From contig JAHEMJ010000007.1 in the NCBI GenBank assembly GCA_024643725.1, forward strand, positions 1 to 64,000: a stretch of DNA of 64,000 nucleotides. The letters run 5' to 3'. Positions 5,718-63,534 of this stretch are shown piece after piece; the stretch's first letter is position 1; every line of letters starts with the position of its first letter. The position numbers and the translations under genes were made by a program. The notes beneath the pieces are model-generated. The model worked only from the letters and a program-made list of their open reading frames with translations. It had not been told where the DNA came from and did not search any database. Source of the stretch: Crocinitomicaceae bacterium (GTDB lineage Bacteria; Bacteroidota; Bacteroidia; Flavobacteriales_D; Crocinitomicaceae).

Positions 5718-7652
5718 TTATTGTCCTATAATGCGTAATTCAATGATTTCAATACGCCGTTCTTGTGAAGCTGCTTTGGAGTAAACAGAGTTCTTTTGGT
5801 CGTAATAATCGTCGCTTGTTTCTTTGTTTGCTTTGAATTCTCCCATGGGTACTTCGATGAACTCCAATGCTGGATTATCGCCGATCATGTAGGCACCAAA
5901 ACGTCCTTGTTGTACTTCTTCAAAATAGTTTTTTAGGGATTGGATGCGTCGCTTCGTCAGGTGAACATTGTAATCAGTTTTCGCAAGTGGACTGGCAAAT
6001 CCTTGTACCATCAACTGAACCCGATTCCCTTTTTGTAATTCAAACCAAACTTGATTGGTGAATTTCTCCAAATCACTTTTCCCTTTTTGAACCTCATCCT
6101 CAAAAAAAGATTGCAATGCCAATGCGGATTGCCTTGCTTGTGCGGAATCGCGCTGCAATGCTACTTTTGTTTTGTAAGTTTCGAATTGCGCTTCGTACTT
6201 TTGATAGGACTCCACATAACTTAAATTGGTGAAATCGGATGTTGTATTCGCATCTGGCTGGTCGTTTTCAAAGTACAGGCGAATGGGTAGTTTGATCGTT
6301 TCATATGGCACCGATGAAATAAGGGGTGTTCCCGGTTTAATCGGTTTCCTTCTCGGAATCTCTGCTAGGTAGATGTCGCTGCAACAGGTTGGATTTTTCG
6401 CGTATAAACTTCCCAATCGATTCGACGAAACAAGTGTAGAGTCTCCTGACTGAAAATAATATTGATCTGCGGCAGGACTGTTAAGTGGGATGCCAACATT
6501 AATAGGAGCACCAAATTTTCCATTACGGAATTCTGAATAAAAAATGTCTTGTCCGCCAAATCCTTGGTGCCAACTGGATGAAAAATACAATCGGTTTTCG
6601 ATGGTGTCGAACCATGGACAAATATCGTGATCGAGGGAGTTAATGCTTGAAATATTCTCAATGGATGTTGGATTCCCGTCTTTATCCAACGTTGTATACC
6701 AGAGGTCCATACCGCCTTTTGTTCCCGATCGATTCGAAGCAAAAAACAGCACTTGTTCTTTATTCAAAATGGAGAAATGCGGCATGGTTGTATTGACTCC
6801 CGTTTGATTCACCACTTGATTCAAGGAATCGAGTGAATGCCATTTTCCATCAGTTCCTTTTTGACTAAATACGATGGCGCAGGTGTAATTGAAATCTTTG
6901 TCCGAACAAACGCTGTAGAAAAATCGTCCATCCCCCGAAAAACTGCCGTTTCCTATGCTTTTCCCAGATGGAATTAGGTCTCTCAGTTTTTTGGCGCTAT
7001 CCTTTTCTTTTTCCATATTCACTTCATAAAGTGCGGTGTGGTAATGCGGTGAATAAACCTCCTGAATTTCCTCATTCATAGAGTCTGCTTTTAAGGAAGA
7101 GAAATACAATAAGCCATCGTGGATCGTATGTCCAAATTCTGCATCATACGAATTGATGTTTTCTCCTAATGAATGAATTTGGATGCCTAAATCCGGACCA
7201 ATTTTCATTTGTTTCAAAGCCCAGTTCGTTGATTCAACTTCCTGCGCGGCCTTTTTGTAGCGGTAAGTAGATTTGTCTTCGGATGCCATTTTTTTGGCCG
7301 TTTTGAAATGTTCCAACGCTTCCTTGTACTTCCCATTTTGCTTTTGCATCAATGCGTAGTTCAATAGAGCATCTGGATAGCGTTCACCGTCTTCATCCTT
7401 TGTATAAACCGTTGCATAATATTTTTCAGCTTGAACATAATCCTTGTAAGCCTTATTGGTTTCGGCAATTTTCCACACTAGATCAAGGTTTTCTGGATCA
7501 AGAACAAGGGCTTGTTGGTAATAATCCAGGGCATAATAGTAATCACCTTTTTGGTATTGTTGATCAGCAAAAGTCAGGATGTCCTTCAGTTTGGCTTGAC
7601 TAAACGACAAATACGGAAGAAGTAGAAAACCAATTAAATAAAATCTGGACAT
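5718..7652 (-). CDS. TPR + PD40 + OmpA-family protein (PorE-like)
   Basis: N-terminal TPRs, PD40-like repeats ('HDICPWFDTIENRLYFSSSWHQGFGGQDIFYSE', 'DLWYTT'), C-terminal OmpA-like region ('VQLMVQGFASPLAKTDYNVHLTKRRIQSLKNYFEE'). Confidence 0.8.
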   Translation of the reverse strand: MSRFYLIGFLLLPYLSFSQAKLKDILTFADQQYQKGDYYYALDYYQQALVLDPENLDLVWKIAETNKAYKDYVQAEKYYATVYTKDEDGERYPDALLNYALMQKQNGKYKEALEHFKTAKKMASEDKSTYRYKKAAQEVESTNWALKQMKIGPDLGIQIHSLGENINSYDAEFGHTIHDGLLYFSSLKADSMNEEIQEVYSPHYHTALYEVNMEKEKDSAKKLRDLIPSGKSIGNGSFSGDGRFFYSVCSDKDFNYTCAIVFSQKGTDGKWHSLDSLNQVVNQTGVNTTMPHFSILNKEQVLFFASNRSGTKGGMDLWYTTLDKDGNPTSIENISSINSLDHDICPWFDTIENRLYFSSSWHQGFGGQDIFYSEFRNGKFGAPINVGIPLNSPAADQYYFQSGDSTLVSSNRLGSLYAKNPTCCSDIYLAEIPRRKPIKPGTPLISSVPYETIKLPIRLYFENDQPDANTTSDFTNLSYVESYQKYEAQFETYKTKVALQRDSAQARQSALALQSFFEDEVQKGKSDLEKFTNQVWFELQKGNRVQLMVQGFASPLAKTDYNVHLTKRRIQSLKNYFEEVQQGRFGAYMIGDNPALEFIEVPMGEFKANKETSDDYYDQKNSVYSKAASQERRIEIIELRIIGQ

Positions 7653-8617
7653 ACGCGATGAATGATTTGTTTTGGTTTAAAACGACTAATGACATATTTC
7701 ACGGCGATTTCGAATCCACCGCGAGCATTGCTGGCCGGAACAAGTTTGGAAAAATTTATGTCGTAACTGATGCCACAATACAAAGGACCTTTTTCATAGG
7801 CGATGTTCATGGACATCGCATCTTTGTTCCGCCACCATAATCCACCGTATAAATTTACTTTGTCTCTCGTTGAGAACGCATAACGGGCAAGTCCGCCCAG
7901 CATACATTCCTGGTATTTCCCTTGCCTGCTGTATTGAAAACTGGGCAGCAAAGTCCAATCAGAAGTCAACGCATAGCTGGCTTTAGTGAAAATGTTCCAG
8001 CGGACATCTCTTAAAACAACTTGGTTGTAAAAGCCTTGATTTGGACGATTCAAATTGAAAGCCGAAATCCCTGAATGAAAAGTCAAACGGTCAGAATATT
8101 TCCAATCGTCCACGAGTCCAAGACCCAAGGATAAATTTGTTTTTGAATCACTTTGAAAAGATTCGTTACTCGGAGCATTCGGATCGAAAATGTAACCGTT
8201 GTATTGGTTATCAAAATACAAGGATGACCAATTAATTTGTCGGTAATTGAATCCGATGTTTACTCCTGGACGAATCGTATGATTGGGTAACATAGAGAGG
8301 TTGATTGGACGATTAATGTTCGCCTGACATTCAACGGTTCGTAGTTTGCCGTCGCCGACTTGATCGTGAAATGCCAATAAGCCCAATCCCCAGTTTTTGT
8401 AACGTGTATCAGCGGAAAAAGAATTCGTACTAAACGGAACCGTCACGCTACGCCATTGATTGCGGTAATTCGCAATGAAGCGAAAATCCTCCTGAAACGC
8501 ACCGGCATTACCTGGATTCTGAAAAAGTGGATTATCATTATATTGTGTCCAATGAATATCCTGTCCATACATCATGGAATGAACGAGAAACAGAAATATG
8601 ATCGTTAAGGACTTCAT
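7634..8617 (-). CDS. PorP/SprF family type IX secretion membrane protein
   Basis: 'QDIHWTQYNDNPLFQNPGNAGAFQEDFRFIANYRNQWRSVTVPFSTNSFSAD' is the canonical PorP/SprF N-terminus. Confidence 0.9.
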   Translation of the reverse strand: MKSLTIIFLFLVHSMMYGQDIHWTQYNDNPLFQNPGNAGAFQEDFRFIANYRNQWRSVTVPFSTNSFSADTRYKNWGLGLLAFHDQVGDGKLRTVECQANINRPINLSMLPNHTIRPGVNIGFNYRQINWSSLYFDNQYNGYIFDPNAPSNESFQSDSKTNLSLGLGLVDDWKYSDRLTFHSGISAFNLNRPNQGFYNQVVLRDVRWNIFTKASYALTSDWTLLPSFQYSRQGKYQECMLGGLARYAFSTRDKVNLYGGLWWRNKDAMSMNIAYEKGPLYCGISYDINFSKLVPASNARGGFEIAVKYVISRFKPKQIIHRVCPDFI

Positions 8618-41409: not shown

Positions 41410-43950
41410 TTATTTTTGAATCATTAATTTTTCAGTGGCAATTCCAGATACATTGGTCATGCGTACGGTATAGAATCCAGCTGAAAGAGTTGAAACAGGG
41501 AACGATACAACGTTAGAACCAATTGTTGCGCTTGTTTGACTAAACAATACGCGACCTGTTGCATCGATTAATTCGATTGCTACTAATTCTGTTGTTTGTT
41601 CGAACGAAACAGCTACTTGTTCTGTTGCTGGATTAGGGAATACCTTCATGTTTGATGAAGTTAATTCGTTTAATCCTACGGTTACATCAACTAAGAATGT
41701 TGCTGTATCTGAACAGTTCCCATTGATTGCAGTTAAAACAACCGTATAAGTTCCGTTTACCGCATAAGCATGAGCAGGAGCTGTTGCTGATGAGTTGGTG
41801 AAATCACCGAAGTCCCAAGAGTAAGAAGTTGCTCCAGCAGAAGTATTGGTGAACGTAGCCACATTTCCAGCCAGGGTCATTGTTCCCGCTGCAGTAGGTG
41901 TTGCATTGAATGTTACTGAAATTGGAGCAGATGTTCCAACACCGTTACATGCGTTTGCATTTGTTGTGGTAACTGTAATGTTCGCTACAGTTGCTGTTAC
42001 GTCGATGCTTTGCGTTGTTGCACCTGTAGACCATAAGTAGCTATCAGATGTTGAAGCTGAAATCGTTACAGTTTCTCCGGCACACGCTTGCGTAGCAGAG
42101 GCATTGATGGTTGGAGCTGGAGCATTTGAAACGTTTACCGTTGTTGCTGCAGAAGAAGCGGAGCATCCGTTCACATCTGTCACTGTTACGGAATAAGATC
42201 CAGAAGTTGTCACAGAAATGGTTGCTGTTGTTGCTGTTGTAGACCAAACGTTTCCTGTTGATGAACTAGAGGTTAAATCAACAGAACCACCTGTACAGAA
42301 AGAAGTTGGACCATTTGCAGAAATTATTGGTGTTGCAGGTAATGCATTCACGGTTACCGTTACCATGACACGTGGACCTTCGTACCCTGCTGCATTCATT
42401 TGAGCAACATAATAGTTGAATGTACCAGCTGTGGTTGTTGATGGTGTTGGTGCAGGAATGCTTGTTCCACCGGTTGCCGTTGTGTACCAGTTAATCGTAC
42501 AATCTTGATTTCCTGTTGCCGTTAATGCATTAGCCGTAGCTCCTTGACAATAGTTAAGGGCTGTCGTTGTTATTGGAGCAGGAATGGTTACTGGGTTAAT
42601 GGATGCGTCAAGGAATGAGATATTTGACAAGGCACTTGAAGCTGTTACAGGACGAAAGTCCGGGCTTAAATACGTATTATTCACACCATAAGGAAGTGTT
42701 AAAATGTTTGCAGATGAAGCTAAAGAATCATTGTTGTTTGCTCCAAACCAAGCGGATATCCCAAATGTACTTCCTGTATTTCTTTCTACAGAGTAATTGG
42801 TAATGTATCCGGCTACTAAATTGTTTTTGTATTTCAATACTCCATTTGTAGCATTTGCCTCACAAGCGGTTCCATCGATGTGAACACCGCGCAGACCATC
42901 CATGAAAATACTGTTGTAAATTTTCAATCCAGAGTTACGACGAATACGTGCTCCTCTTCTAAATCCAGAAGCGACTGTTGCAGCAGTATTTCCTCTTAGT
43001 GGACCAACATAAGTCACATTCGAGAAAATCGCTGATGTTTGAGGTGAATTGGCAGAACCTGATGCATCGTTATCTGATTCAAATCCTTCAGAAGTTGAAA
43101 CCGTTGGATTATCTGCAATCAATGGGTCACGTACGGCCAAACAATATTGAACCAAACCAGAGAATCCATTATCTGTATCAAAATCATCATCCAAGTTACG
43201 GTAAGAAACTAAGTGACGGCAGTTTACAGTACCACCAAACCATTCGTAAGCATCGTCATTTGAAAAGGAAACTTGTACGTAATCAATGGTTGTTGCGCGT
43301 CCAATTGAACCCAAAGTCAATCCGTTGATTTCTTTATTTGGTTGGTAAACATATCCAGGGAATTCAATGCGCACATAACGAAGAATACCTGAGTTGTCAT
43401 TTGCATCTGGATTCGCTCCACCACCATACTGTGTATCAAATGTTGGCGCTAATCCTTCGATGTTTGCGATACCACCAGCATTGTTGTTGGTAGATTTTCC
43501 CATCAAAATGATTCCACCCCAGTCACCTAAAGCACGTTGTCCAGCAGGTTGGTTTGATGTGAAAACAATTGGATTTGAAGCTGTTCCATCAGCGATTAAT
43601 TTAGAACCTTGTGTAATGAATAAACCGGATCCAGCAGTATTTTTATCACCCATTACCACTGTTCCAGGTTGAATCGTTAGAGTCGCTCCATTTTTCACAT
43701 AGATTTGACCTTGAAGCAAGTAAATGTTGTTTGAAGTCCAAGTAGTGTTTGTCGTAATTGCAGCGGTCACGGTAACATTGGAACTTCCATATACGGTGTT
43801 TTGTGGATCGAAGTTTGTCCAAGTGTCGGTCCATTGAGCCGTTGGCGCAGGAGCGAATGCCCCTCTGTAATTGGTAGGCTGGAAGAAACTCTGCCCGAAT
43901 GCGATAAGACTTACATACAAGCTTAAAGCGGTTAACGTAATTTTTTTCAT
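41410..43950 (-). CDS. Secreted parallel-beta-helix-like protein with Ig-like/PKD domains and T9SS type A sorting domain
   Basis: 'GDWGGIILMGKSTNNNAGG', 'TYSWDFGDFTNSSATAPAHAYAVNGTYTVVLTA' PKD, C-terminal 'MKVFPNPATEQVAVSFEQTTELVAIELIDATGRVLFSQTSATIG...GFYTVRMTNVSGIATEKLMIQK'. Confidence 0.85.
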   Translation of the reverse strand: MKKITLTALSLYVSLIAFGQSFFQPTNYRGAFAPAPTAQWTDTWTNFDPQNTVYGSSNVTVTAAITTNTTWTSNNIYLLQGQIYVKNGATLTIQPGTVVMGDKNTAGSGLFITQGSKLIADGTASNPIVFTSNQPAGQRALGDWGGIILMGKSTNNNAGGIANIEGLAPTFDTQYGGGANPDANDNSGILRYVRIEFPGYVYQPNKEINGLTLGSIGRATTIDYVQVSFSNDDAYEWFGGTVNCRHLVSYRNLDDDFDTDNGFSGLVQYCLAVRDPLIADNPTVSTSEGFESDNDASGSANSPQTSAIFSNVTYVGPLRGNTAATVASGFRRGARIRRNSGLKIYNSIFMDGLRGVHIDGTACEANATNGVLKYKNNLVAGYITNYSVERNTGSTFGISAWFGANNNDSLASSANILTLPYGVNNTYLSPDFRPVTASSALSNISFLDASINPVTIPAPITTTALNYCQGATANALTATGNQDCTINWYTTATGGTSIPAPTPSTTTAGTFNYYVAQMNAAGYEGPRVMVTVTVNALPATPIISANGPTSFCTGGSVDLTSSSSTGNVWSTTATTATISVTTSGSYSVTVTDVNGCSASSAATTVNVSNAPAPTINASATQACAGETVTISASTSDSYLWSTGATTQSIDVTATVANITVTTTNANACNGVGTSAPISVTFNATPTAAGTMTLAGNVATFTNTSAGATSYSWDFGDFTNSSATAPAHAYAVNGTYTVVLTAINGNCSDTATFLVDVTVGLNELTSSNMKVFPNPATEQVAVSFEQTTELVAIELIDATGRVLFSQTSATIGSNVVSFPVSTLSAGFYTVRMTNVSGIATEKLMIQK

Positions 43951-47211: not shown

Positions 47212-49779
47212 TTAATCGAATACCACTTTCATTTCTACGCGACGGTTTTTCTGACGACCTTCCGGTGTGTCATTCGTAGCAATTGGTTTCGTTTCTCCAA
47301 AGTATTGTACAACGAATCGACTTGCATCAATTCCCTGAGAAACAAGATATGCTTTCACTGCTTCTGCTCGTTTTTTAGAAAGTAACATGTTGGCTGTGTC
47401 GTCACCTTGATTATCGGTATGACCACTAATCTCTAGTTTCCATGTTGGTTTTTTCTTCAACACTTCAGCTAATTCACCTAAGGAAACTTTTGATCCTTCA
47501 AGAATGATGTCTTTTCCGACTTCAAACTCTAAGTTGTCAAATGCCGTTTTCAAAACTTCAATCACCGCTTGTTCAATCACTGGACAACCTTTATTTGATT
47601 TCGGTCCAGGAGTATTCGGACAATCATCGTCTTTGTCTAATAATCCATCTTTATCACTGTCTTTGTAAGGGCACCCTTTATTTGCTTTAGGGCCAGCTAA
47701 AGTAGGACAGTCATCATCCTTGTCTAGGATGCCATCATTGTCACCATCTTTATACGGACAACCACGGTTTTCCACTGGACCAGCGACATCTGGACATTCA
47801 TCAATAAAGTCATACACGCCATCTGCGTCTTTGTCTGGACAACCTTTGTTTTCTTTTGGACCAGCGTTGTCTGGACATGCATCTTCTGCGTCTTGTACGC
47901 CATCACCATCTTTATCCGGACATCCTTTCAAAGCAGGTAAACCAGCGACTGTAGGACAAGCATCTTCAGAGTCGATGATTTTGTCACCATCCGTATCTGG
48001 ACAACCTTTGAATTCTTTTAATCCAGCTACATCCGGACATGCATCATTTTTATCGATGATTTTATCGCCATCTTTGTCCGGACAACCTTTAAATTCTGCC
48101 GTTCCTGTTACGTCAACACATTCGTCATCTGAATCAGGAATTCCATCTTTATCTGTATCTGGACAACCTTTGAATTCCCAAGTGCCAGGGACTTTTTTAC
48201 ATTCATCTTTCTTATCGGAAACTTTGTCTTTATCCTTGTCCTTCACACGGTGGTATAGGATTGGAAGTCTAGCTCCGAAGTAAAATTCAATTCCGCTCAC
48301 ATTCTTTTTAGCCATGAGGGTTTTCATGTCCGTAATACCAACAATAAGTGGACCGAGGCGCGTAGCTACCCCATATTTCATTCCACTGTATTGATTGTAC
48401 GAAATCGGCATATACACACCAAAATATGGACTGTCAAAACTTGGAGTCAAGGAAAATTGATTTGCCGTTTTCACTTTGGTATCTTTTCCTTGAGAAATCA
48501 TGTTTACCATCGAAGTAGCATTCACATAGAATCCTTTCCAAATGCGGTAGTCAATTTGAACACTTACAGCCGTAGGTGTGCGCATTTTAAATGTTTGGGA
48601 GGTACCTTGAAGGGCTACCCATTCTTGGTTTCCAGCGGCAGTCGACTGATTAATTAAAGTGTCAATCACCCCATCAAATCCTTCTAAATTAGTTGCCGTT
48701 TCAAAGCGGTGTAAATTGAAGTAATTCGAAGTATTCACAGCAAAATTACGGCTTAATCCACCCTTCGTGAATTTCATGCTTCCCATGTCCACAAGTGAAA
48801 GTCCAGCGCGCAATTTATATTTGTTTTCGTTGCGACGCCATAAATTGGTTTCACCATCCATGTCGTATTTGTATTTTTCATAGTTTGGACGCCATTCGTA
48901 AACAGCACCGATGTCCATTCCAAAGCCTAATTTCGATGCAGGATTTAAGATGTCTGAAATAGTTGGATTTTGTCCATTCATTCCATTGTTGATGATGCCA
49001 TTTGCGTTGTTGGAGTAACCGTAATCAAAGGTTCCAGAAAGGTATTGGGAAGTATCCTCGTTTTTCAAATTATAAGAGAAGTCATCTGTATAGACATAAG
49101 CTGCAGCGTGTCCAAGCAATAACTTTGGTGCAATTCCAATTTTCAAGAAATGTTCCTTGTTATCTACCACCACTTGAGAATAGTTAAATCCAACTTCGGA
49201 CCAAGTCATATAGTTGACATTGAACAATTGCTCATTGAATTTCGCATTCCATAAACTTGGGTGGATCAATCCATCTTCCGCAAGAACGGCCAATTTTGGA
49301 TCCATGTTGTCAACATTGATGATGGTTCTATTACGAACATTGAATCCTATTGCTGTTTTTTCATTGATGTGGAACATCGTATTGAGTAGATCCACTTGAA
49401 AATTAATATTTGCGCCCAACGTTTTTGTGGACGTTTCATCGTAGTTATGCACAACGAAACGATCGATAAAACTAGAATCTGGCTTTGACCAAGAATTTAA
49501 AATGTTTTGATCTGCAAAAGATTTATACCACCAGTATCCTTGTCCACCTTGCGCAGTACGCATGGCAGAGGCATCGAAATACCCGAAATTTTGGTAGACA
49601 TTCATGTTCGTTCCGAATAGGAGCATGTCAAACTTGTAGCGTCCATCCACGAAGTTGGCTGGATTCACTTGGTTTCCGATAACACCAGCGTAATTACTAC
49701 TTCCTAATCCAAGGTAGCTTTGCGCATGAAGCGTTACAGATGAAATGAAAATTGAAAGACAGATGAGTGCTTTTTTCAT
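47212..49779 (-). CDS. DUF5723-like barrel + thrombospondin type 3 repeats + OmpA domain protein
   Basis: N-terminal 'SYLGLGSSNYAGVIGNQVNPANFVDGRYKFDM'; eight ~27-aa DxDxDGxxDxxDxCP...GCP repeats; C-terminal OmpA 'WKLEISGHTDNQGDDTANMLLSKKRAEAVKAYLVSQGIDASRF...NRRVEMKVVFD'. Confidence 0.9.
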   Translation of the reverse strand: MKKALICLSIFISSVTLHAQSYLGLGSSNYAGVIGNQVNPANFVDGRYKFDMLLFGTNMNVYQNFGYFDASAMRTAQGGQGYWWYKSFADQNILNSWSKPDSSFIDRFVVHNYDETSTKTLGANINFQVDLLNTMFHINEKTAIGFNVRNRTIINVDNMDPKLAVLAEDGLIHPSLWNAKFNEQLFNVNYMTWSEVGFNYSQVVVDNKEHFLKIGIAPKLLLGHAAAYVYTDDFSYNLKNEDTSQYLSGTFDYGYSNNANGIINNGMNGQNPTISDILNPASKLGFGMDIGAVYEWRPNYEKYKYDMDGETNLWRRNENKYKLRAGLSLVDMGSMKFTKGGLSRNFAVNTSNYFNLHRFETATNLEGFDGVIDTLINQSTAAGNQEWVALQGTSQTFKMRTPTAVSVQIDYRIWKGFYVNATSMVNMISQGKDTKVKTANQFSLTPSFDSPYFGVYMPISYNQYSGMKYGVATRLGPLIVGITDMKTLMAKKNVSGIEFYFGARLPILYHRVKDKDKDKVSDKKDECKKVPGTWEFKGCPDTDKDGIPDSDDECVDVTGTAEFKGCPDKDGDKIIDKNDACPDVAGLKEFKGCPDTDGDKIIDSEDACPTVAGLPALKGCPDKDGDGVQDAEDACPDNAGPKENKGCPDKDADGVYDFIDECPDVAGPVENRGCPYKDGDNDGILDKDDDCPTLAGPKANKGCPYKDSDKDGLLDKDDDCPNTPGPKSNKGCPVIEQAVIEVLKTAFDNLEFEVGKDIILEGSKVSLGELAEVLKKKPTWKLEISGHTDNQGDDTANMLLSKKRAEAVKAYLVSQGIDASRFVVQYFGETKPIATNDTPEGRQKNRRVEMKVVFD
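47582..48245. repeat. DNA encoding eight tandem TSP3-type Ca-binding repeats (~81 bp unit)
   Basis: Repeated DKDGDKIIDxxDACPDVAGxxEFKGCP units. Confidence 0.85.
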
Positions 49780-54256: not shown

Positions 54257-56488
54257 TTACATGCGTAATCTTAGCTCATTTAATTTACGGTTGTCTACAA
54301 CTGCAGCCGTTTTTCTCAACGCTCCGATTGCTTGACCTTGGAAAGATCCTTTCAGCGTTTTCGCCATCTCGTCACGTTCCACTTTGTAACCCGTGCTTGC
54401 AGGTGCTTTCGTTGTTTTCGTAATTTGAATCATGTAGACACCACTTTTCCCTTTTAAAGGCAATGTGTTTTTTCCAGTTTTCATGACGGATGAGAATAAC
54501 ATACCAATGATTTCCGGCTCATATCCAACATTAGCAATTTGCGGATTGGCAAAGGTGATTTCTGCTGTTTGAATCACCAAATTACATTTTTTCGCAACTG
54601 CTTTTACAGTGTTTCCTTTCGCCATTTGGTTCATGAAACGTTTTGCTTTTTTCTCTGTAATCAACTCTCTTTCCATGTCCAATTTTACATTCTCATATGT
54701 TGGCTCACCTTCTTCTTTGATGGAAGTCACCATACCAATAATGTATTTGTCTTTGTCTTTGATTGGATAAGTAGTTAATGAACCAACTTCCACACCGTCG
54801 CTGTAAGCTAATTCAAGAATTTTATCTGCAGCCATAGAAGTAGCGAATCCATATGCTTTCGGAGCTTTGTCCTCCAACAAAATGCTACGTGCAACATAAT
54901 TCGCTTGACGAACGATGGTATCAAACAAACTTACTTTTTTCAAAATATCTGCTGTTTTACCAATCTTACGGTCTAATTTATAAAGGATGTTATTGATTTC
55001 ACTTTCCTTGTTACTAATGGTTTCTTCTGATGCTTTGAATTGCTTAGAAATAGAAGCCAATACAGGGAATTTAGAAGCATCTCTTTCCATTACTTCAACG
55101 ATGTGGAAACCAAATTCAGTTTTCACTACAGCAAATTTGTTTAAAGGCGCTGTTGCACAGAATGATCCAAATTCCGGAACCATATCTCCTTCAAGGAAGT
55201 TATCAATAACACCACCGGTTTTTTTCGATTGAGTATCATCCGAGAATTTATCAGAAAGAGCTACGAAGTTATCTTTATTGACAATTTTCAATAAACTATC
55301 TGCTGTTTTGCGTTTTGCTTCAATCACCTTAGCATCTTTCGAACCGCCAGTTGCTAACAAGATGTGTCTTGCTTTCAATCGTGAAGGGGTAAATCCAATC
55401 ACTTTGGAAATCACCATGTTTTCTTTCATCGCATATGGCCCAACAACTTGTCCAATTTGCGCTAATTTGAAAATGGTATCGTAAGAAATCGGATACGTTT
55501 GATATTGATTTGATTTTGGATTTCCTTCAGGAACAGCCGTAGATCTTTTACTATTGAAATAGATTTTCACGTCGCTATTGCGCAATACATACAATGAATC
55601 GTTTGTGGATGTCATGAATCCAGCTTTCAGTTCATTCAGTGTTTTGTTCATTTTTGATGTGTCTGCTTTCGAAGGAGCAACCACTACATCAAAAACTTTC
55701 ACTTCGCGAGAAGAAGAACGAATGGCATATTTTTTATCTCCTTTGTGTTCGTCATAATAAGCTTTCAATTCGCTTTCCGAAACTTTCACGTCAGCATCAG
55801 CGATGTCAGAATAAGGTCGGAAAACAAATGAAATGGATTTTGTTTCTTTATTTGCATAATAGTTATCCTCTGCCTCCAAATTAGTCACATAAGCAGCTTG
55901 ATCTAACAATCCAAAATACTTCTCACGTTTTCTAGTGTCCGTATAATATTGTTTTGTTCCATTCCACTGTTGAACAGCTTGTGGCTCTTTGCTTGTTTTT
56001 AGTTTGTTTAGTGTCGTTTGCAGTTTTGTGCGCCCTTCCACCATAGACTGTGGTGTAACAGCACCAGTCATTGAATCAACAAAAAACTGATTTAAATCCT
56101 GGATAATGTTAAATCCATCTGTTGCCAACAAATATGCATTGAATTCACGCTCTGAAACGGAGATTCCTAATGCCTCGTACTCTTTGCTTAGAATCGTTGA
56201 ATCAACCAAGTAGTTCCACCCATTGTCATTTGCCGTTTCCATATCTGAATCGGTAAATTCTTTATTTGCTTGCATCGCTTGATTGCGACCTTGCTCTTGG
56301 AATTTTGAACTTGCTACGTTGTATTCTTTTGGATCAACCTTCTCACCGTAAACGGTACCGATGCCATATTGACCTTCATTGATACCCAATAAATGTTGAT
56401 AATCTGATAAAATGAAGGTTGCCAATGCAAGTCCTACAATTCCAACAAGTAATCCTGATTTCGCACGAATTTTTCCAATAATTGCCAT
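54257..56488 (-). CDS. Membrane-anchored peptidyl-prolyl isomerase (PpiD/SurA-like)
   Basis: N-terminal TM; SurA_N-like region; rotamase 'KARHILLATGG...NKDNFVALSDKFSDDTQSKKTGGVIDNFLEGDMVPEFGSFCATAPLNKFAVVKTEFGFHIVEVMER'. Confidence 0.92.
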   Translation of the reverse strand: MAIIGKIRAKSGLLVGIVGLALATFILSDYQHLLGINEGQYGIGTVYGEKVDPKEYNVASSKFQEQGRNQAMQANKEFTDSDMETANDNGWNYLVDSTILSKEYEALGISVSEREFNAYLLATDGFNIIQDLNQFFVDSMTGAVTPQSMVEGRTKLQTTLNKLKTSKEPQAVQQWNGTKQYYTDTRKREKYFGLLDQAAYVTNLEAEDNYYANKETKSISFVFRPYSDIADADVKVSESELKAYYDEHKGDKKYAIRSSSREVKVFDVVVAPSKADTSKMNKTLNELKAGFMTSTNDSLYVLRNSDVKIYFNSKRSTAVPEGNPKSNQYQTYPISYDTIFKLAQIGQVVGPYAMKENMVISKVIGFTPSRLKARHILLATGGSKDAKVIEAKRKTADSLLKIVNKDNFVALSDKFSDDTQSKKTGGVIDNFLEGDMVPEFGSFCATAPLNKFAVVKTEFGFHIVEVMERDASKFPVLASISKQFKASEETISNKESEINNILYKLDRKIGKTADILKKVSLFDTIVRQANYVARSILLEDKAPKAYGFATSMAADKILELAYSDGVEVGSLTTYPIKDKDKYIIGMVTSIKEEGEPTYENVKLDMERELITEKKAKRFMNQMAKGNTVKAVAKKCNLVIQTAEITFANPQIANVGYEPEIIGMLFSSVMKTGKNTLPLKGKSGVYMIQITKTTKAPASTGYKVERDEMAKTLKGSFQGQAIGALRKTAAVVDNRKLNELRLRM

Positions 56489-56549: not shown

Positions 56550-56588
56550 ATAAAAAAGGAGGCTTATTTGCCTCCTCCTTTTTGTGGT
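56550..56588 (-). terminator. Terminator overlapping the stop codon of the giant repeat protein gene
   Basis: AAAAAGGAGGC-ttattt-GCCTCCTCCTTTTT; 3' arm flanked by T-rich minus strand; the stop codon lies in the loop. Confidence 0.8.
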
Positions 56589-59500
56589 GTCCCACCTTTC
56601 GGTGTTGTTGGATTCGTTTGATTTTGTGGACTCTGTTGAACAGGCGCCGCTGCTGGTTTTGTTTGCGTTGGAGGTGGTGGCGGTGGAGTCGTTGTTTTTG
56701 TTCCTGCTCCCTGTTGCGTTGGTGCTGGTTTAGCCGGAGGTGGTGGTGTTTGAACTGGTTTCGGCTGTGTTGTAACTGGTTTCGGTTGAGCAGGTTGACT
56801 CTGAACCGGAGCTGGTTTGGCTGGCGGTGGAGTTGTTTGTACTGGTCTTGGTTGAGCAGGAGTTGTTTGAACGGGAGCAGGTCTGTTATTCGCCGGAGCT
56901 GAGTTGTATTGATTTGGACGATTTTGTGGAGTCGGTTGAGGACTGTTTGATTTGTTTTGACTCGGTTGGTTTTGTTGCATCATTCCATCAGAATTTCCTC
57001 CGTTCCCGCCTGAACCTGAACCTGATGCATCGTCATAGGTGATCGTGTACGTTTTACTGTCATTCCCACACTGACTAGTTGCATTGATTTGAACCGTATT
57101 TTGTCCTGGACTCAAGCTTAAATTTGCACTAATCGCACCGGATACATTTTGGTATGTACTCATTTCTGTTCCGTTAAAAATGAATTGAACAGGCACAGCC
57201 GGTGTGTAGTTTGTAATGAATGCGGTGAAACTTAAATTAGCAGAAGTAACCGTTGCTCCACTGCTTGGATCCGTGGTGATGTCGATGACCGGTGGAATGC
57301 AACTTTGATAACGTATGGTGCGCAATTGTGTCGCTGTACCACAAGCATTGGTGGCCGTCAATACGATTTCATCTACACCCTCTGGTAAATTTAAAGTAGC
57401 GGTAAAGTTTCCATTGGTAAAGTTGAAATTCGACACATTATTTCCAGCTACTGTCAAACTGATGCCTTGGCTGCTGGACATATGCTGTATCGTTGCTTGG
57501 AATGGGAATATCGGACTATTTACACCGTAGAAAAGATCTACTGGATTGATTATGGACACAACCGGTGCGACACATTGTTCAAAGTTAATGTTCACGGTTT
57601 TACTATCTGTACCACAGCCATTTGAAGCGGAAAGAACGATGGTGTTTTGTCCATTGTTTAAGTTTAAGATGGCACTTAATTGTCCATTGTTAAAGGAAGC
57701 ATTTGGAATCACATTCCCATTCAAGGTAAGATTGATTCCTTGTCCCGAACCAATATTCAAAATTTGAGCATTGTAGTTGTACGTCGCATTGCTCACCGTT
57801 TCACTTGATGTTGACGGATTTAAAATCGAAACAAGTGGAGCCAAACATGGTTCGTACTTGATGTATACTGTTTTGGTATCCGTACCACATGCGTTTGTTA
57901 CCGTGACATTGATTTCGTTATTTCCGTTGGAGAGATTCAAATTGGCTGAAATCATTCCATTTAAGAAATTGAAATTCGTGACATTTGTTCCATTCACACT
58001 CAAATTGATTTGAGAAAGTGTCGCGTTTTGAACGTTCGCTGAAAAGGCGTAATTGTTCGCGCTTACTGTGATGCTCGTGCTGGATGGATTCGTAATGGAA
58101 ACGACTGGTGCCACGCATGGATTGTACGCTACATTAATTGTTTTACTGTCTGTTCCACAAGAACCAACCGCGCTCAAGACTACGACATTGTTGCCGTTGG
58201 ATAATGGAATCGTTGCCGTGACTTGTCCACTTGTTGGATTAAACTGTGCAGTCGAAACCGGTGTTCCGTTCACGGTCAAAGAGACTCCCTGTCCAGATGT
58301 GACGTTTTGTACTGATCCATTGAACGAAAGGCTGTTTGAATTTGCTGTTAACGTGGCGCTACTTGGATTGGTAATTGTTACCACTGGAGGATTACAAGGT
58401 TCGTATCGAATGACGCGGCTTTGCGCATCATTTCCACAGGCATTGGTGGCGGATAATGAGATCGTGTTCATTCCATTCGATAAAGTGATACTGGCTGTTA
58501 CTTGTCCATTTGAATAATTGAAGTTCGTAATGGCTGTTCCATTTAATGTCAAGGAAATCCCTTGTGAAGAGGACATGTTGGACACATTCGCTGCAAAGGA
58601 GATAACTGGATTCGACACCCCATAATTTGTGTTTACTGGATTCGAAATCGCTACTGTTGGTGCCGTACAAGCGCTGTACTGAATGGTTCTGGTTTCGGAA
58701 TCTGTTCCGCAGGCATTTGTTGCCGTTAATACGAACGTGTTGAGTCCCGGACTGAGTGCAAGGACAGCTGAAACTTGTCCATTTGCAAAAACAAGGTTTG
58801 AAACTGAATTTCCATTGTGAAGTAAGCTGATTCCTTGCAGACTGGTCATTTGTGGTGCTGTTGCTTGGAAGGTATAGGTAGCGTTTGATACGGTTACATT
58901 GTTCGTTGCCGGACTTCCAATTGTTACATTTGGTGTTTGACAATTTAAATAAGTCACACTATTGTTCTTCATGTCCGAGCCACAAGCATTAGACACACTG
59001 AGGTGGAAGGTGTTTACTCCCGGACTAAGTGTAACGTTTGCGGAAAGTTGACCATTTGAATAGAAATAGTTCGTAATAGCAACACCGTTTAATGTCAAAA
59101 TAATTCCTTGGTTAGTTGGAACATGTTGAATATTCGCCGTGTAGGTAAAGGATGCCATATTGACATTTGCGGCGTTGATACTAGGTGCACTTACGGTAAT
59201 AATCGGTGCGACGCAATTCGAATAGAAAATAGTCACTGTTTTGATATCTGTACCACACGCATTCGTTCCTTTCAAAACAATGGTATTCAGGCCATTTTGC
59301 AAACCGAGATTGGCTGAAATTACTCCATTTGTTAAGGTGAAATTACTGATGGTTGTTCCATTTAAACTGAGTAAAATTCCTTGTGTATTGGACACATTCT
59401 GTACATTGGCTTGGAAAGCGAATTGTGCTGCGTTAACGGACAATCCACTATTCGCAGGACTTGTGATGGAAACAATAGGAGCGGTACATGGGGTATAATT

Positions 59501-62500
59501 CATGTCCCAATGATGTTGATCTGTTCCACAATTATTGCTCACGCTCAACACAAAGGAATTCGTTCCGCTTGTTAAGTTCACGTTTGCATTGAAGTTACCG
59601 TTGCTAAAGTTAAATGGACGCTGAATGCCATTTTGGGTAAAGACAATGTTCTGTGTGTTTACATTGCTGATGTTTGCGGTGATCAGTTGGGTCGCATTCG
59701 TGATCACGGTTGTTGGAGCATTGGATGCATTCGTGATTTGCGGAGCCACACAATTGTCATAAGTAATGGAAATAGTCTCCACATCCAATCCGCAGTCATT
59801 GCTGGCATTGAAGATGATGGTGTTTAATCCCGGAGTTAAGGTAATCGATGCAGATACCGCTCCATTTTGTAAGTTGAAAGGACGCGTAACGCCATTTACT
59901 TTCAAGCTCATGTTTTGAGCACTTGAAACTCCTGTTACCGTTGCAGCGAATGAGTAATTTACATTTGTAACGGTTGTCCCTGATGGAATACTAGAAGTTA
60001 ATTGAATGGTTGGTGGGATACATTGCACGTAATTAACAGTAAATGTCTCTGCATCATTTCCACAAGCGTTGTTCACAGAAAGGGTGATGGTATTGATTCC
60101 ACCCGTTAAAGAAATGTTTGCTTCAATCAGTCCATTGGTAAACGTAAACGGAATTTGTTGTCCATTTTTTACCAATTGGATGTTTTGAGATTGAAGAATG
60201 TTGGTTGCGTTTGCTTTAAATTGTAAGCTCGCAATGTTGGTCGTTCCACCCGTTGTGCTCGGTTGAATCAGTGTGATTTGTGGAGCGCTACAATTGTTAT
60301 AGGTGATGGTGATGGTTTTGCTGTCCGTCCCACAAGCGGATGTCACCGTTTTTACAACAAAGGTATTCGTTCCAGGTATCAAGGTTGTAACGGCGCTGAT
60401 TTGTCCAGCTGTTTGATTAAAAGGAATTGGACTTCCGTTTTGAGTTACACTGATTGTTTGACCGTTCCCTAAGTTGTTCGTGCTGGCAAGAAGCGTGTAT
60501 ACCGGGATATTTGTAGATCCTCCGTTGGACAGAAGCGAAAGAACCGGAGTAACACCGGTGCAATTGGTGTAATTGAATGAAATGGTTTCCACGTCTGAAC
60601 CACAGTTATTTGTTGCAGTAATGGTGATGCTGTTGTTCCCATTTGCTAACATTAGTCCAAGATCAATGGCACCTGTGGCACTATTGAACGTGAAATTGTT
60701 CTGCTCAATGCCATTAAAAATCACTTTGATATTTTGCTTCGTTGTGATGTTGCTCACGATGGCATTCAAACGAATCGCATTCGTGGAAGTAGTGATGGTT
60801 TGATTTTGACTTGGCGTTTGCACTGTGATAACAGGAGCCGTACAATTTTGGTAATAAATGTTTGTTATTTCCACATCATTTCCACAGCCATTCATGACTT
60901 CCACATTGAAGGAGTTCATTCCCGCTGTTAAGGTAACAGGCACTTGTAATTGTCCGTTCGTACCAACGGTTGGATTCGCTAATTGAAGTCCGTTGTGAAA
61001 TACTTTCACCGCAGCTGTCGACAAGCTACCTGTGATATTCGCAGACAAGGTAAAATTGGCACTACTGGTTGTTGTTCCCGAAGTACTTGGATTCAAGATT
61101 TGAATACTTGATGGAACGCAATTGTCGTAAGTGATTGTTGCCGTATATGTATTGGATCCGCAGTCGTTGCTTACCGTTAACTGAATGGTGTTGACTCCTG
61201 GGATTAAAGTAATCACGCGTTGTAATAATCCATTTGTAGTATTGTAAATGGCACCGTTTAAAGCCATTCCGTTCATGGTCAGTTTGATGTTGTTCGCATT
61301 GACAGATCCTTGAATAAGTGCACTGAAGGTAAAGTCACTTGTTTTAACGGTCATTGAATTTCCGTTTGGATTCGTAAAGGTCGCTGTTGGCGTCACACAG
61401 TTGAGCAATGTCACATATACAGTCGCTGATTCACTTCCACAATTGTTACTTGCACTTAAATAGAACGTGTTTTGTCCATTGTGCAATTGCACTTGCGCAT
61501 CAATGGTTTGTGTAGAAGCGTTATAATTAAACAGTACCGGTTGATTCAAGTCATTTAACAAGGTCGCACCCGATGCCGCAAGTAAATTACTTACCTTGAA
61601 TTCGATGTGATATGCACTATTCGTTACTGTTTTGTTGTTTCCTGAAACGAGTGTTAGAACTGGTTTCGGACAATTCGTTGTTGTGGTGTAATTGTTAACG
61701 TTACTGGTGTTATTTTCTGTTGAATAGCGATCACCACGTGCTTTAAAATAGAGTTTCCAATATACGGATGTATAATGGTAAAGGTCATTTTTCAATCTAG
61801 GGCTAGCAGATACATATCCATCAAAAACATCGCCTCTCGTGAAAGTCGTTTTGTGTTCAATTCCGATACTTGCACGTTTTCCAAAGGAGTATCCCAAACC
61901 AAAGCCCAAACTTGGCATCCATTTCACATGATATTGATTACCTGTGAGTCCATCTAAACGTGTTTCAGCAATTCCATCCAAGTTGGAAGAAAGTTGAGAG
62001 GCAATTGGTCCGTTTTGGAACATCGAAGAATAATCGTAAATGGAGGAGGAGTCCATGGTGCTGAAAAGGTCCCCGTATGTTTGGGTCCAGGTTAATCCAA
62101 TTCCACCAAAAACATATGGATCTAAGCCTGTTCTCTCGCGTACCCCATTCATGTGCAGCACGAGTTCTAGGCTCAATCGTTTGACATCTGTTTGGAAGTT
62201 GTTGACGTAAATTGAGCTACTGTCTACATAATACGGCGCTAAGATTCCACCTGGATAATTTGCCAATGAAATAGCACTTGTATCTTGTCCAACCCATGTC
62301 CCAGTTAAGAAACGTCCTCTTAAATCAAAGCTGATTTTCTTTCCGTAGTCATAATTATATGAGCGCCCTAGGATTAATCCGTAACCGGAACTTGTGACAT
62401 TTTTCACATCTGTTGTATTCCATGCGGCACCGGCATTTAGCCCAAAAAACCATTTGGAACTAATATCGTAATTGATGTGCTGTGCATTTAAAAAAGAGAT

Positions 62501-62539
62501 GCTTAATAAGAAAGCACTAAGAAAGTACCATTTTTTCAT
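56564..62539 (-). CDS. ~1990-aa surface protein: N-terminal barrel-like domain, 17 Cys-containing ~90-aa repeats, Pro/Gln-rich tail
   Basis: Start at internal ATG 62539 (MKKWYFLSAFLLSISFLNAQ signal peptide). N-terminal region 'WFFGLNAGAAWNTTDVKN...DPYVFGGIGLTW...MPSLGFGLGYSFGKRASIGIEHK'. Repeats C(V/T)APxVxIxNPS...NGQxSAxxxLxxGxNTIxLSxxNxCGTDxKTxxIxYxx. No T9SS C-terminal domain. Confidence 0.85.
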   Translation of the reverse strand: MKKWYFLSAFLLSISFLNAQHINYDISSKWFFGLNAGAAWNTTDVKNVTSSGYGLILGRSYNYDYGKKISFDLRGRFLTGTWVGQDTSAISLANYPGGILAPYYVDSSSIYVNNFQTDVKRLSLELVLHMNGVRERTGLDPYVFGGIGLTWTQTYGDLFSTMDSSSIYDYSSMFQNGPIASQLSSNLDGIAETRLDGLTGNQYHVKWMPSLGFGLGYSFGKRASIGIEHKTTFTRGDVFDGYVSASPRLKNDLYHYTSVYWKLYFKARGDRYSTENNTSNVNNYTTTTNCPKPVLTLVSGNNKTVTNSAYHIEFKVSNLLAASGATLLNDLNQPVLFNYNASTQTIDAQVQLHNGQNTFYLSASNNCGSESATVYVTLLNCVTPTATFTNPNGNSMTVKTSDFTFSALIQGSVNANNIKLTMNGMALNGAIYNTTNGLLQRVITLIPGVNTIQLTVSNDCGSNTYTATITYDNCVPSSIQILNPSTSGTTTSSANFTLSANITGSLSTAAVKVFHNGLQLANPTVGTNGQLQVPVTLTAGMNSFNVEVMNGCGNDVEITNIYYQNCTAPVITVQTPSQNQTITTSTNAIRLNAIVSNITTKQNIKVIFNGIEQNNFTFNSATGAIDLGLMLANGNNSITITATNNCGSDVETISFNYTNCTGVTPVLSLLSNGGSTNIPVYTLLASTNNLGNGQTISVTQNGSPIPFNQTAGQISAVTTLIPGTNTFVVKTVTSACGTDSKTITITYNNCSAPQITLIQPSTTGGTTNIASLQFKANATNILQSQNIQLVKNGQQIPFTFTNGLIEANISLTGGINTITLSVNNACGNDAETFTVNYVQCIPPTIQLTSSIPSGTTVTNVNYSFAATVTGVSSAQNMSLKVNGVTRPFNLQNGAVSASITLTPGLNTIIFNASNDCGLDVETISITYDNCVAPQITNASNAPTTVITNATQLITANISNVNTQNIVFTQNGIQRPFNFSNGNFNANVNLTSGTNSFVLSVSNNCGTDQHHWDMNYTPCTAPIVSITSPANSGLSVNAAQFAFQANVQNVSNTQGILLSLNGTTISNFTLTNGVISANLGLQNGLNTIVLKGTNACGTDIKTVTIFYSNCVAPIITVSAPSINAANVNMASFTYTANIQHVPTNQGIILTLNGVAITNYFYSNGQLSANVTLSPGVNTFHLSVSNACGSDMKNNSVTYLNCQTPNVTIGSPATNNVTVSNATYTFQATAPQMTSLQGISLLHNGNSVSNLVFANGQVSAVLALSPGLNTFVLTATNACGTDSETRTIQYSACTAPTVAISNPVNTNYGVSNPVISFAANVSNMSSSQGISLTLNGTAITNFNYSNGQVTASITLSNGMNTISLSATNACGNDAQSRVIRYEPCNPPVVTITNPSSATLTANSNSLSFNGSVQNVTSGQGVSLTVNGTPVSTAQFNPTSGQVTATIPLSNGNNVVVLSAVGSCGTDSKTINVAYNPCVAPVVSITNPSSTSITVSANNYAFSANVQNATLSQINLSVNGTNVTNFNFLNGMISANLNLSNGNNEINVTVTNACGTDTKTVYIKYEPCLAPLVSILNPSTSSETVSNATYNYNAQILNIGSGQGINLTLNGNVIPNASFNNGQLSAILNLNNGQNTIVLSASNGCGTDSKTVNINFEQCVAPVVSIINPVDLFYGVNSPIFPFQATIQHMSSSQGISLTVAGNNVSNFNFTNGNFTATLNLPEGVDEIVLTATNACGTATQLRTIRYQSCIPPVIDITTDPSSGATVTSANLSFTAFITNYTPAVPVQFIFNGTEMSTYQNVSGAISANLSLSPGQNTVQINATSQCGNDSKTYTITYDDASGSGSGGNGGNSDGMMQQNQPSQNKSNSPQPTPQNRPNQYNSAPANNRPAPVQTTPAQPRPVQTTPPPAKPAPVQSQPAQPKPVTTQPKPVQTPPPPAKPAPTQQGAGTKTTTPPPPPPTQTKPAAAPVQQSPQNQTNPTTPKGGTPQKGGGK
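57027..61675. repeat. 17 tandem ~270-bp divergent coding repeats
   Basis: Recurring '...CGTD.KT..I.Y..C.AP' boundary in the translation at ~90-aa spacing. Confidence 0.88.
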
Positions 62540-62640
62540 AGACTTGATTTTTTTAGGTGTCCTACCTATTTTCATGCCAAATTTCCGAAAAAAAGCACGA
62601 GAAAAAAAATGCCTACCCTGGAACTGAAGTGCGCAATGGA

Positions 62641-63534
62641 TTATTGAAAATACGTGTACTTGGTAAAACGCAAGATCAGTAGGAAGTTTGTCGAAACATC
62701 CCGCATTATCGTTGACCCTAAAAGTTGGGTCTTTGTATCGAAAATCACTTGAAGGTCTTTCTGAAATTGTCCGTAACGGTAAAAATGTGCTTCCATGACA
62801 TTTCCGTAGGCATCATATCGGTATTTCCATTCCTCATCGGCTACGTCATCTTTCTCGTTGAAGTGTGCTTTTATGGAAAGAAGTCCATGTGCATCATACC
62901 CATATTCCATGTGGTGTTCGATTCCGCTCATGTGATACAAAAATTTACGTTCGATGAGGTATCCATCTTGATTGTAGCGTGAGATTTCATCCAAATAAGG
63001 AAGGTGATAATTGTTGAGTTTGGTGCGGGTTTGGATATTCCCAAGCATGGAATATTGATAGTATTCGGTGTTGATTAATATGGACTGACTCACTTCATTT
63101 GTTCGATAATTGTAGACTTCGCGATAGGTATTCAGTTCTCGAATGCGGTGCAAGGAATCGTAGTCATACACCAATTTGGTATACCCACCGTTTTCGGATT
63201 TTCGCTGAGCGCTAAGTGCGCCTTGTCGATCATAGAAAAATTGATGAAGTACGGTGTCCTTTTTTTTGTTGACTGTTCGAATATCCAAGCTTTCTATTAA
63301 TTGACCATTTTCATCGAAGCGATAACGTACCCAGTCGGTACTTTCATGAATGACCTCTCCTGGTTTTTTGGTAGAATAATTTCCTTCAATGGTTTTGATG
63401 TGATTGGAACGAATCATGTCCGCATTGAAAAACGGTTGGTCCGTGAAAGCTTCCCCCTCTTGATTCAACAGAAGTTGAGCTTCGCCTTCGTATGAAAGCA
63501 ACAAAAATAAAGTTGAAATCAGAATGTATTTCAA
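62641..63534 (-). CDS. Secreted protein with RHS/YD-like repeats
   Basis: Signal peptide; 'RFDENGQLIESLDIRT', 'FYDRQGALSAQRKSENGGYTKLVYDYDSLHRIRELN', 'YGYDAHGLLSIKAHFN', 'YRYDAYGNVMEAHFY'. Confidence 0.75.
   Translation of the reverse strand: MKYILISTLFLLLSYEGEAQLLLNQEGEAFTDQPFFNADMIRSNHIKTIEGNYSTKKPGEVIHESTDWVRYRFDENGQLIESLDIRTVNKKKDTVLHQFFYDRQGALSAQRKSENGGYTKLVYDYDSLHRIRELNTYREVYNYRTNEVSQSILINTEYYQYSMLGNIQTRTKLNNYHLPYLDEISRYNQDGYLIERKFLYHMSGIEHHMEYGYDAHGLLSIKAHFNEKDDVADEEWKYRYDAYGNVMEAHFYRYGQFQKDLQVIFDTKTQLLGSTIMRDVSTNFLLILRFTKYTYFQ

Follow-up and report, generated by a model that had tools for sequence, protein, structure and literature searches.

A conserved outer-membrane protein of Crocinitomicaceae with an OmpA/PorG-type barrel, a predicted periplasmic chain of Ig-like units and a putative role in type IX secretion

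In OmpA, the part of the protein that follows the last barrel strand is periplasmic. A regular alternation of long and short connections between the strands is usual for eight-stranded outer-membrane barrels, i.e. barrels with both ends in the periplasm, and the barrels of type Ve inverse autotransporters have twelve strands. In PorG the C-terminal tail is also periplasmic and carries force via a disulfide to GldK, and recent work has demonstrated disulfide links between outer-membrane proteins and a moving track (PMC12635249). Intramolecular isopeptide bonds are found in Gram-positive pilins such as RrgB (PMC3132780). The protein discussed here is built of a barrel and of repeat units that are each of known kinds. 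A search of open-licence papers for an OmpA-like protein with Ig-like repeats returned none, and in it we found no description of this combination of barrel and Ig units, of intra-unit disulfides on such a scale or of the type IX secretion system (T9SS) gene context.

The window analysed is a stretch of 64,000 nucleotides from a Crocinitomicaceae bacterium (GenBank assembly GCA_024643725.1, contig JAHEMJ010000007.1, positions 1 to 64,000), and the features of the locus are collected in Table 1. The orthologue-type start of the gene is the Met codon at 62539 (MKKWYFLSAFLLSISFLNAQ), which gives a product of 1991 aa; the in-frame ATG further upstream, at 62575, is not conserved among the orthologue starts. 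A sequence-only reading of the window had proposed a signal peptide, a barrel-like N-terminus, 17 two-Cys repeats and a Pro-rich tail, and this layout was borne out in all its parts by the sequence and by AF2 models. A close relative, L049, is 81% identical over 1981 aa and retains the 34 Cys. The same reading had seen no T9SS signal on the protein, and it was right in this respect: neither a type A nor a type B C-terminal sorting domain was found, PF18962, PF13585, TIGR04183 and TIGR04131 all being without a match. PDB sequence searches with the whole protein, the barrel profile and the unit profile gave no meaningful match.

Table 1. The gene of the rod protein, the parts of its product and the two flanking genes, in window coordinates.
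Feature	Position	Strand	Basis or remark
ORF, 2003 codons	56564-62575	-	
Signal peptide MKKWYFLSAFLLSISFLNA	62483..62539	-	Sequence and orthologue starts; cleavage site inferred
8-stranded OmpA/PorG-type outer-membrane barrel	61745..62455	-	AF2, Foldseek, hhalign, PorG-model matches
Linker from barrel to first unit, low confidence	61673..61744	-	AF2 pLDDT <50 for part
Rod of 17 Ig-like units, one C1-C2 pair each	57029..61672	-	
Pro-rich cationic tail, 154 aa, KGGGK end	56567..57028	-	Terminus kept in most relatives
297-aa protein, function unassigned, one RHS-repeat match	62641..63534	-	Upstream; conserved in the window's clade
PpiD/SurA-type peptidylprolyl isomerase	54257..56488	-	Downstream; conserved in most Crocinitomicaceae loci

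The barrel was modelled with AF2 on an alignment of 47 orthologues. Eight strands were predicted (model residues 29-40, 50-61, 69-86, 113-130, 139-156, 204-219, 223-233 and 253-265), the connections being long after strands 3, 5 and 7, shorter after strand 1 and short after strands 2, 4 and 6, i.e. longer loops on one side and short turns on the other, in the pattern usual for a barrel whose two ends are periplasmic. Foldseek with this model retrieved the OmpA transmembrane domain (target-normalised TM 0.63-0.70). The barrel suspected at the N-terminus is thus supported, and a non-barrel fold, the outcome that was to speak against it, was not obtained. The window protein's own barrel matched no Pfam family. 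Its best NCBIfam match is PorG (NF052316), with 21.1 bits against a cut-off of 130, and a true PorG is encoded elsewhere in the genome (G000:C9:11967-12695, 145 bits), so that an identity as PorG orthologue was rejected. Twelve of the 17 aligned members match the PorG model with E of 1 or less, the lowest value being 4.8e-11, and one member matches PF13505 OMP_b-brl. A phylum-wide scan found relatives of the barrel in the GTDB family f15, in proteins of about 530-580 aa with E to 2e-25; the one f15 relative that was scanned carries OmpA_C (PF00691), for which no match was found in the whole window protein. With hhalign nearly the whole barrel was aligned at 99.7% to the OmpA-family barrels of f15 and at 97.8% to PorG, i.e. 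in terms of sequence profiles the window barrel is nearer to the OmpA family than to PorG.

The 17 units are 88-94 aa long and hold all 34 Cys of the protein, two apiece. C1 begins every unit and C2 lies within a CG motif in 17/17 units, 74-80 residues further on, so the two-Cys pattern that had been described holds throughout. The C-x-A/P-P start that was said to go with it is found in 12 of the 17 units; the rest keep C1 at their opening and depart from the motif. C2 and the C1 that follows it are 14 residues apart in 16/16 cases in the window protein and in 521 of 564 in the relatives, and the regularity of the Cys spacing is far beyond chance. AF2 folded three tandem units into Ig-like sandwiches (mean pLDDT 96.4), and Foldseek with the unit model retrieved titin and other tandem Ig domains, in agreement with the Ig-like beta-sandwiches that had been supposed. 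On the other hand, the view that the units fall outside any nameable repeat family has to be given up, since the whole protein passes PF09136 Glucodextran_B (55.1 bits vs a cut-off of 27) and PF12733 Cadherin-like (47 vs a gathering cut-off of 24.2 bits). Note that a lone unit scores under both cut-offs.

The position of the two Cys in the fold is relevant to their pairing. C1 precedes strand A and C2 occupies the F-G turn. Both sites lie at one pole of an Ig sandwich, and C2 and the next C1 are parted by strand G. Both Cys are present in 794 of 888 units and neither in 83, only 11 units being discordant. In mixed proteins, the counts for C1 and C2 within a unit (both/first only/second only/neither) are 39/0/1/78, and those for C2 and the next C1 are 22/14/16/54. 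Because C1 and C2 occur together or are missing together across relatives, a disulfide, if formed, would lie inside each unit, and the earlier suggestion of one disulfide per unit is backed by this covariation. A bond from C2 to the next C1 was considered and rejected: covariation is weak between neighbours and strong within the unit, and strand G also holds these two residues apart along the long axis. In the relative L034, Cys-containing and Cys-less units alternate over much of the length. L159 (G344:C45, 1324 aa), a relative from beyond the order, combines the barrel with 11 Cys-less units that do not show the two-Cys pattern, and the disulfide lock may therefore be a later addition.

The C-terminal tail contains 39 Pro, 13 K/R and 1 D/E in its 154 aa. 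As a rule the tails of Crocinitomicaceae are Pro/Lys-rich; the net charge is positive in 38 of 46 complete relatives, and 39 of 46 have GG among the last six residues (e.g. KGGGK). In other families the position is occupied by TPR repeats (PF00515 and others) or by TolA-like K/A/E-rich stretches (coiled coil), modules of a kind to be expected in the periplasm. Five relatives (L010, L011, L023, L024 and L031) have in common a Gly/Asn/Asp-rich motif that follows their last unit, DGVDxSNPGQGxGGPNGxxDxxGxxDDE, and that the window protein does not have, and the tails of L034, L085, L099 and L114 contain Cys/His modules with the pattern ICHxPPGNxxNxQxIxIPLSAWxAHQAHGDxxGxC.

Of 203 high-quality genomes of the order, 131 carry the barrel, almost always as a single copy; most of the ORFs that contain it are between about 750 and 3000 aa long. 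The protein is a conserved outer-membrane protein of Crocinitomicaceae (f1), where nearly all genomes have the gene, the exceptions being genus g27 and one congeneric draft genome; all four sampled g27 genomes (G175, G242, G258 and G272) are without it, a natural loss. Two loci that encode the family, L118 and L123, come from Fluviicola MAGs. The gene also occurs in parts of f3, f10, f11 and f13, and the barrel profile matches 20 of 396 genomes sampled phylum-wide.

At 43 of 80 loci, a count in which neighbouring loci are kin by descent and hence not independent, the gene is divergent from an adjoining pair that consists of a type-B T9SS C-terminal-domain protein and a PorP/SprF carrier (representatives confirmed with PF13585 and PF11751, respectively). 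The pair also adjoins the gene in f3, f10 and f11 and is absent beside it in f13, and 28 of 45 SprF neighbours have a twin-Cys C-tail. At 40 of 117 loci SprA, the T9SS translocon, is encoded inside the examined flanks, to one side of the gene or to the other and in two gene orders; in the window's genus the distance is 8.6 kb. The window's own genome encodes a GldJ homologue, PorG, ten PorP/SprF proteins and 34 type-B domain matches; a search of it for an orthologue of the neighbouring SprF gave distant paralogues alone (identity <=28%). Co-occurrence with GldJ was considered as a test of a link to gliding and set aside as uninformative, since GldJ-model matches, partly paralogues, occur in 26/26 genomes. 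The PpiD/SurA-type isomerase may be functionally linked to the rod protein. Elsewhere the window contains a further PorP/SprF-family gene (7634-8617, minus strand), one of the genome's ten, as well as two envelope genes near that of the rod protein: one (41410-43950) encodes 846 aa with Ig_7, PKD and a type A sorting domain for T9SS, the other (47212-49779, minus strand) 855 aa with TSP3 and OmpA_C.

The barrel has the strand topology of one with periplasmic ends, and it aligns end to end with those of OmpA and PorG. In both of these families the C-terminal part is periplasmic, so the same is to be expected of the units, and we consider this location probable. A straight rod of 17 units would measure an estimated 65-70 nm, assuming 4 nm per unit; the concern of the sequence-only reading about length holds, since such a rod could not stand upright in the periplasm and would have to bend or lie along the envelope. 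Since the gene is found beside T9SS/gliding genes in many relatives, the protein may belong to that machine as a component that bears force. Our preferred reading, to which we give a probability of roughly 0.45, is that the rod, periplasmic and nearly inextensible, is carried by an OmpA/PorG-type barrel and forms a load-bearing tether for T9SS/gliding. The OmpA_C domain, or the Cys tail of PorG, would here be replaced by the rod of Ig units and its cationic Pro-rich end. The disulfide of each unit would link the F-G turn to the point where strand A begins, so that about 78 of 91 residues are covalently looped, and strand G, a fixed step of 14 residues, would be the sole covalent join between successive loops; such a chain should hardly lengthen under tension. 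The tether would run along the envelope from the barrel towards the peptidoglycan or the T9SS/gliding track and would serve the type IX secretion/gliding apparatus. Taken by itself, some role in T9SS has about an even chance. Less likely than not, though of some probability, is the more specific reading that the protein is an undescribed T9SS/gliding component of Crocinitomicaceae and allied families, in which a covalently locked Ig cable carries or spreads force between the outer membrane, the adhesin carrier SprF and the moving track or cell wall.

Several points count against the load-bearing tether. The orientation of the barrel relative to the units is poorly modelled (pTM 0.47), and the length of the rod exceeds the depth of the periplasm. 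Some relatives have numerous Cys-less units, so the disulfide lock is not always needed, and the number of units varies from 2 to 19, so the rod is no fixed-length ruler. N, T and S are abundant in the units, as they are in many surface proteins. Neither DsbB (PF02600) nor VKOR (PF07884) was matched in the protein's own genome (95% complete), which is a weak point given the 17 predicted disulfides. Genus g27 is without the gene despite having GldJ-family and PorG genes (PorG in both genomes scanned), and in the window's own clade the type-B/SprF pair does not adjoin the gene, its place being taken by glycyl-tRNA synthetase and the short hypothetical gene for the 297-aa protein.

The variable number of units is adhesin-like, and together with their N/T/S-rich composition and a gross order as in intimin and invasin, barrel then Ig-like units, it would fit a surface rod that leaves the cell through its own barrel or together with it, as inverse (type Ve) autotransporters do. 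A rod outside the cell was also what the sequence-only reading had in mind, with the puzzle of how it gets there. We regard this as unlikely. The barrel has eight strands and not the twelve of type Ve, and the passenger therefore lacks room; the type Ve barrel models in Pfam and NCBIfam were unmatched, so that strand number and family searches both disagree with this identity; the barrel is homologous to families with periplasmic C-terminal parts, and the relatives carry periplasm-type tails. The puzzle itself is mostly gone, since a periplasmic rod needs no export.

The main rival, to which the surface rod is inferior, keeps the rod in the periplasm and makes it a structural spacer between outer membrane and peptidoglycan, similar to OmpA, with a basic tail that binds the wall and a neighbourhood that is historical, i.e. 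there would be no role in T9SS. Such a spacer is possible. In its favour, the gene persists in the window's clade despite the loss of its T9SS neighbours, and also in f13, where they are absent; the closer affinity of the barrel to the OmpA family and the mostly net positive tails point in the same direction. It agrees less well with a type-B/SprF pair that stays adjacent in four families, with a SprA that remains near the gene in two different gene orders, and with the failure to find OmpA_C in the protein. The gene context is also comparable to that of SprD, a gliding protein of Flavobacterium johnsoniae encoded between sprB and sprF: a 2011 paper by Rhodes et al. (cited in PMC9870892) places sprD, in its title, in a sprB-sprC-sprD-sprF operon, here matched by type-B and SprF genes, and one proteomics paper calls SprD a T9SS part (PMC12045153). 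However, a barrel profile that finds so few genomes across the phylum is unlikely to have a detectable orthologue in typical gliders, and we think it very improbable that the rod protein is a local form of SprD.

If the rod is periplasmic, it would be an unusual giant Ig-like chain, of up to 19 units, in a Gram-negative envelope, with a barrel of the PorG/OmpA superfamily as its anchor. That the gene is repeatedly placed by type-B adhesin/SprF genes and near SprA turns the load-bearing tether into a concrete, testable proposal on how type IX secretion and gliding sustain force.

It is instructive to compare the general features of this protein with those of the known systems. The OmpA family, as represented by the proteins of about 560 aa in f15, has the same homologous eight-stranded barrel and a predicted periplasmic C-terminal part, but that part is OmpA_C (PF00691), whereas in the window protein the barrel is followed by the 17 Ig-like units and the Pro-rich tail. 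PorG (NF052316) shares a distantly homologous eight-stranded barrel; its tail carries a Cys-X-Cys motif that the window protein lacks, all 34 Cys of the latter being in the units. Intimin and invasin (type Ve) have the barrel-first order followed by an Ig-like chain in common with the window protein, but their barrel is 12-stranded while that of the window protein is eight-stranded and leaves the type Ve models unmatched. Finally, in Gram-positive pilins such as RrgB (PMC3132780) Ig-like beads are each closed by an internal covalent bond. In these pilins the bond is an isopeptide, while in the window protein it would be a disulfide, in a chain that is anchored by a barrel and predicted to be periplasmic; the parallel that we draw is mechanical alone.
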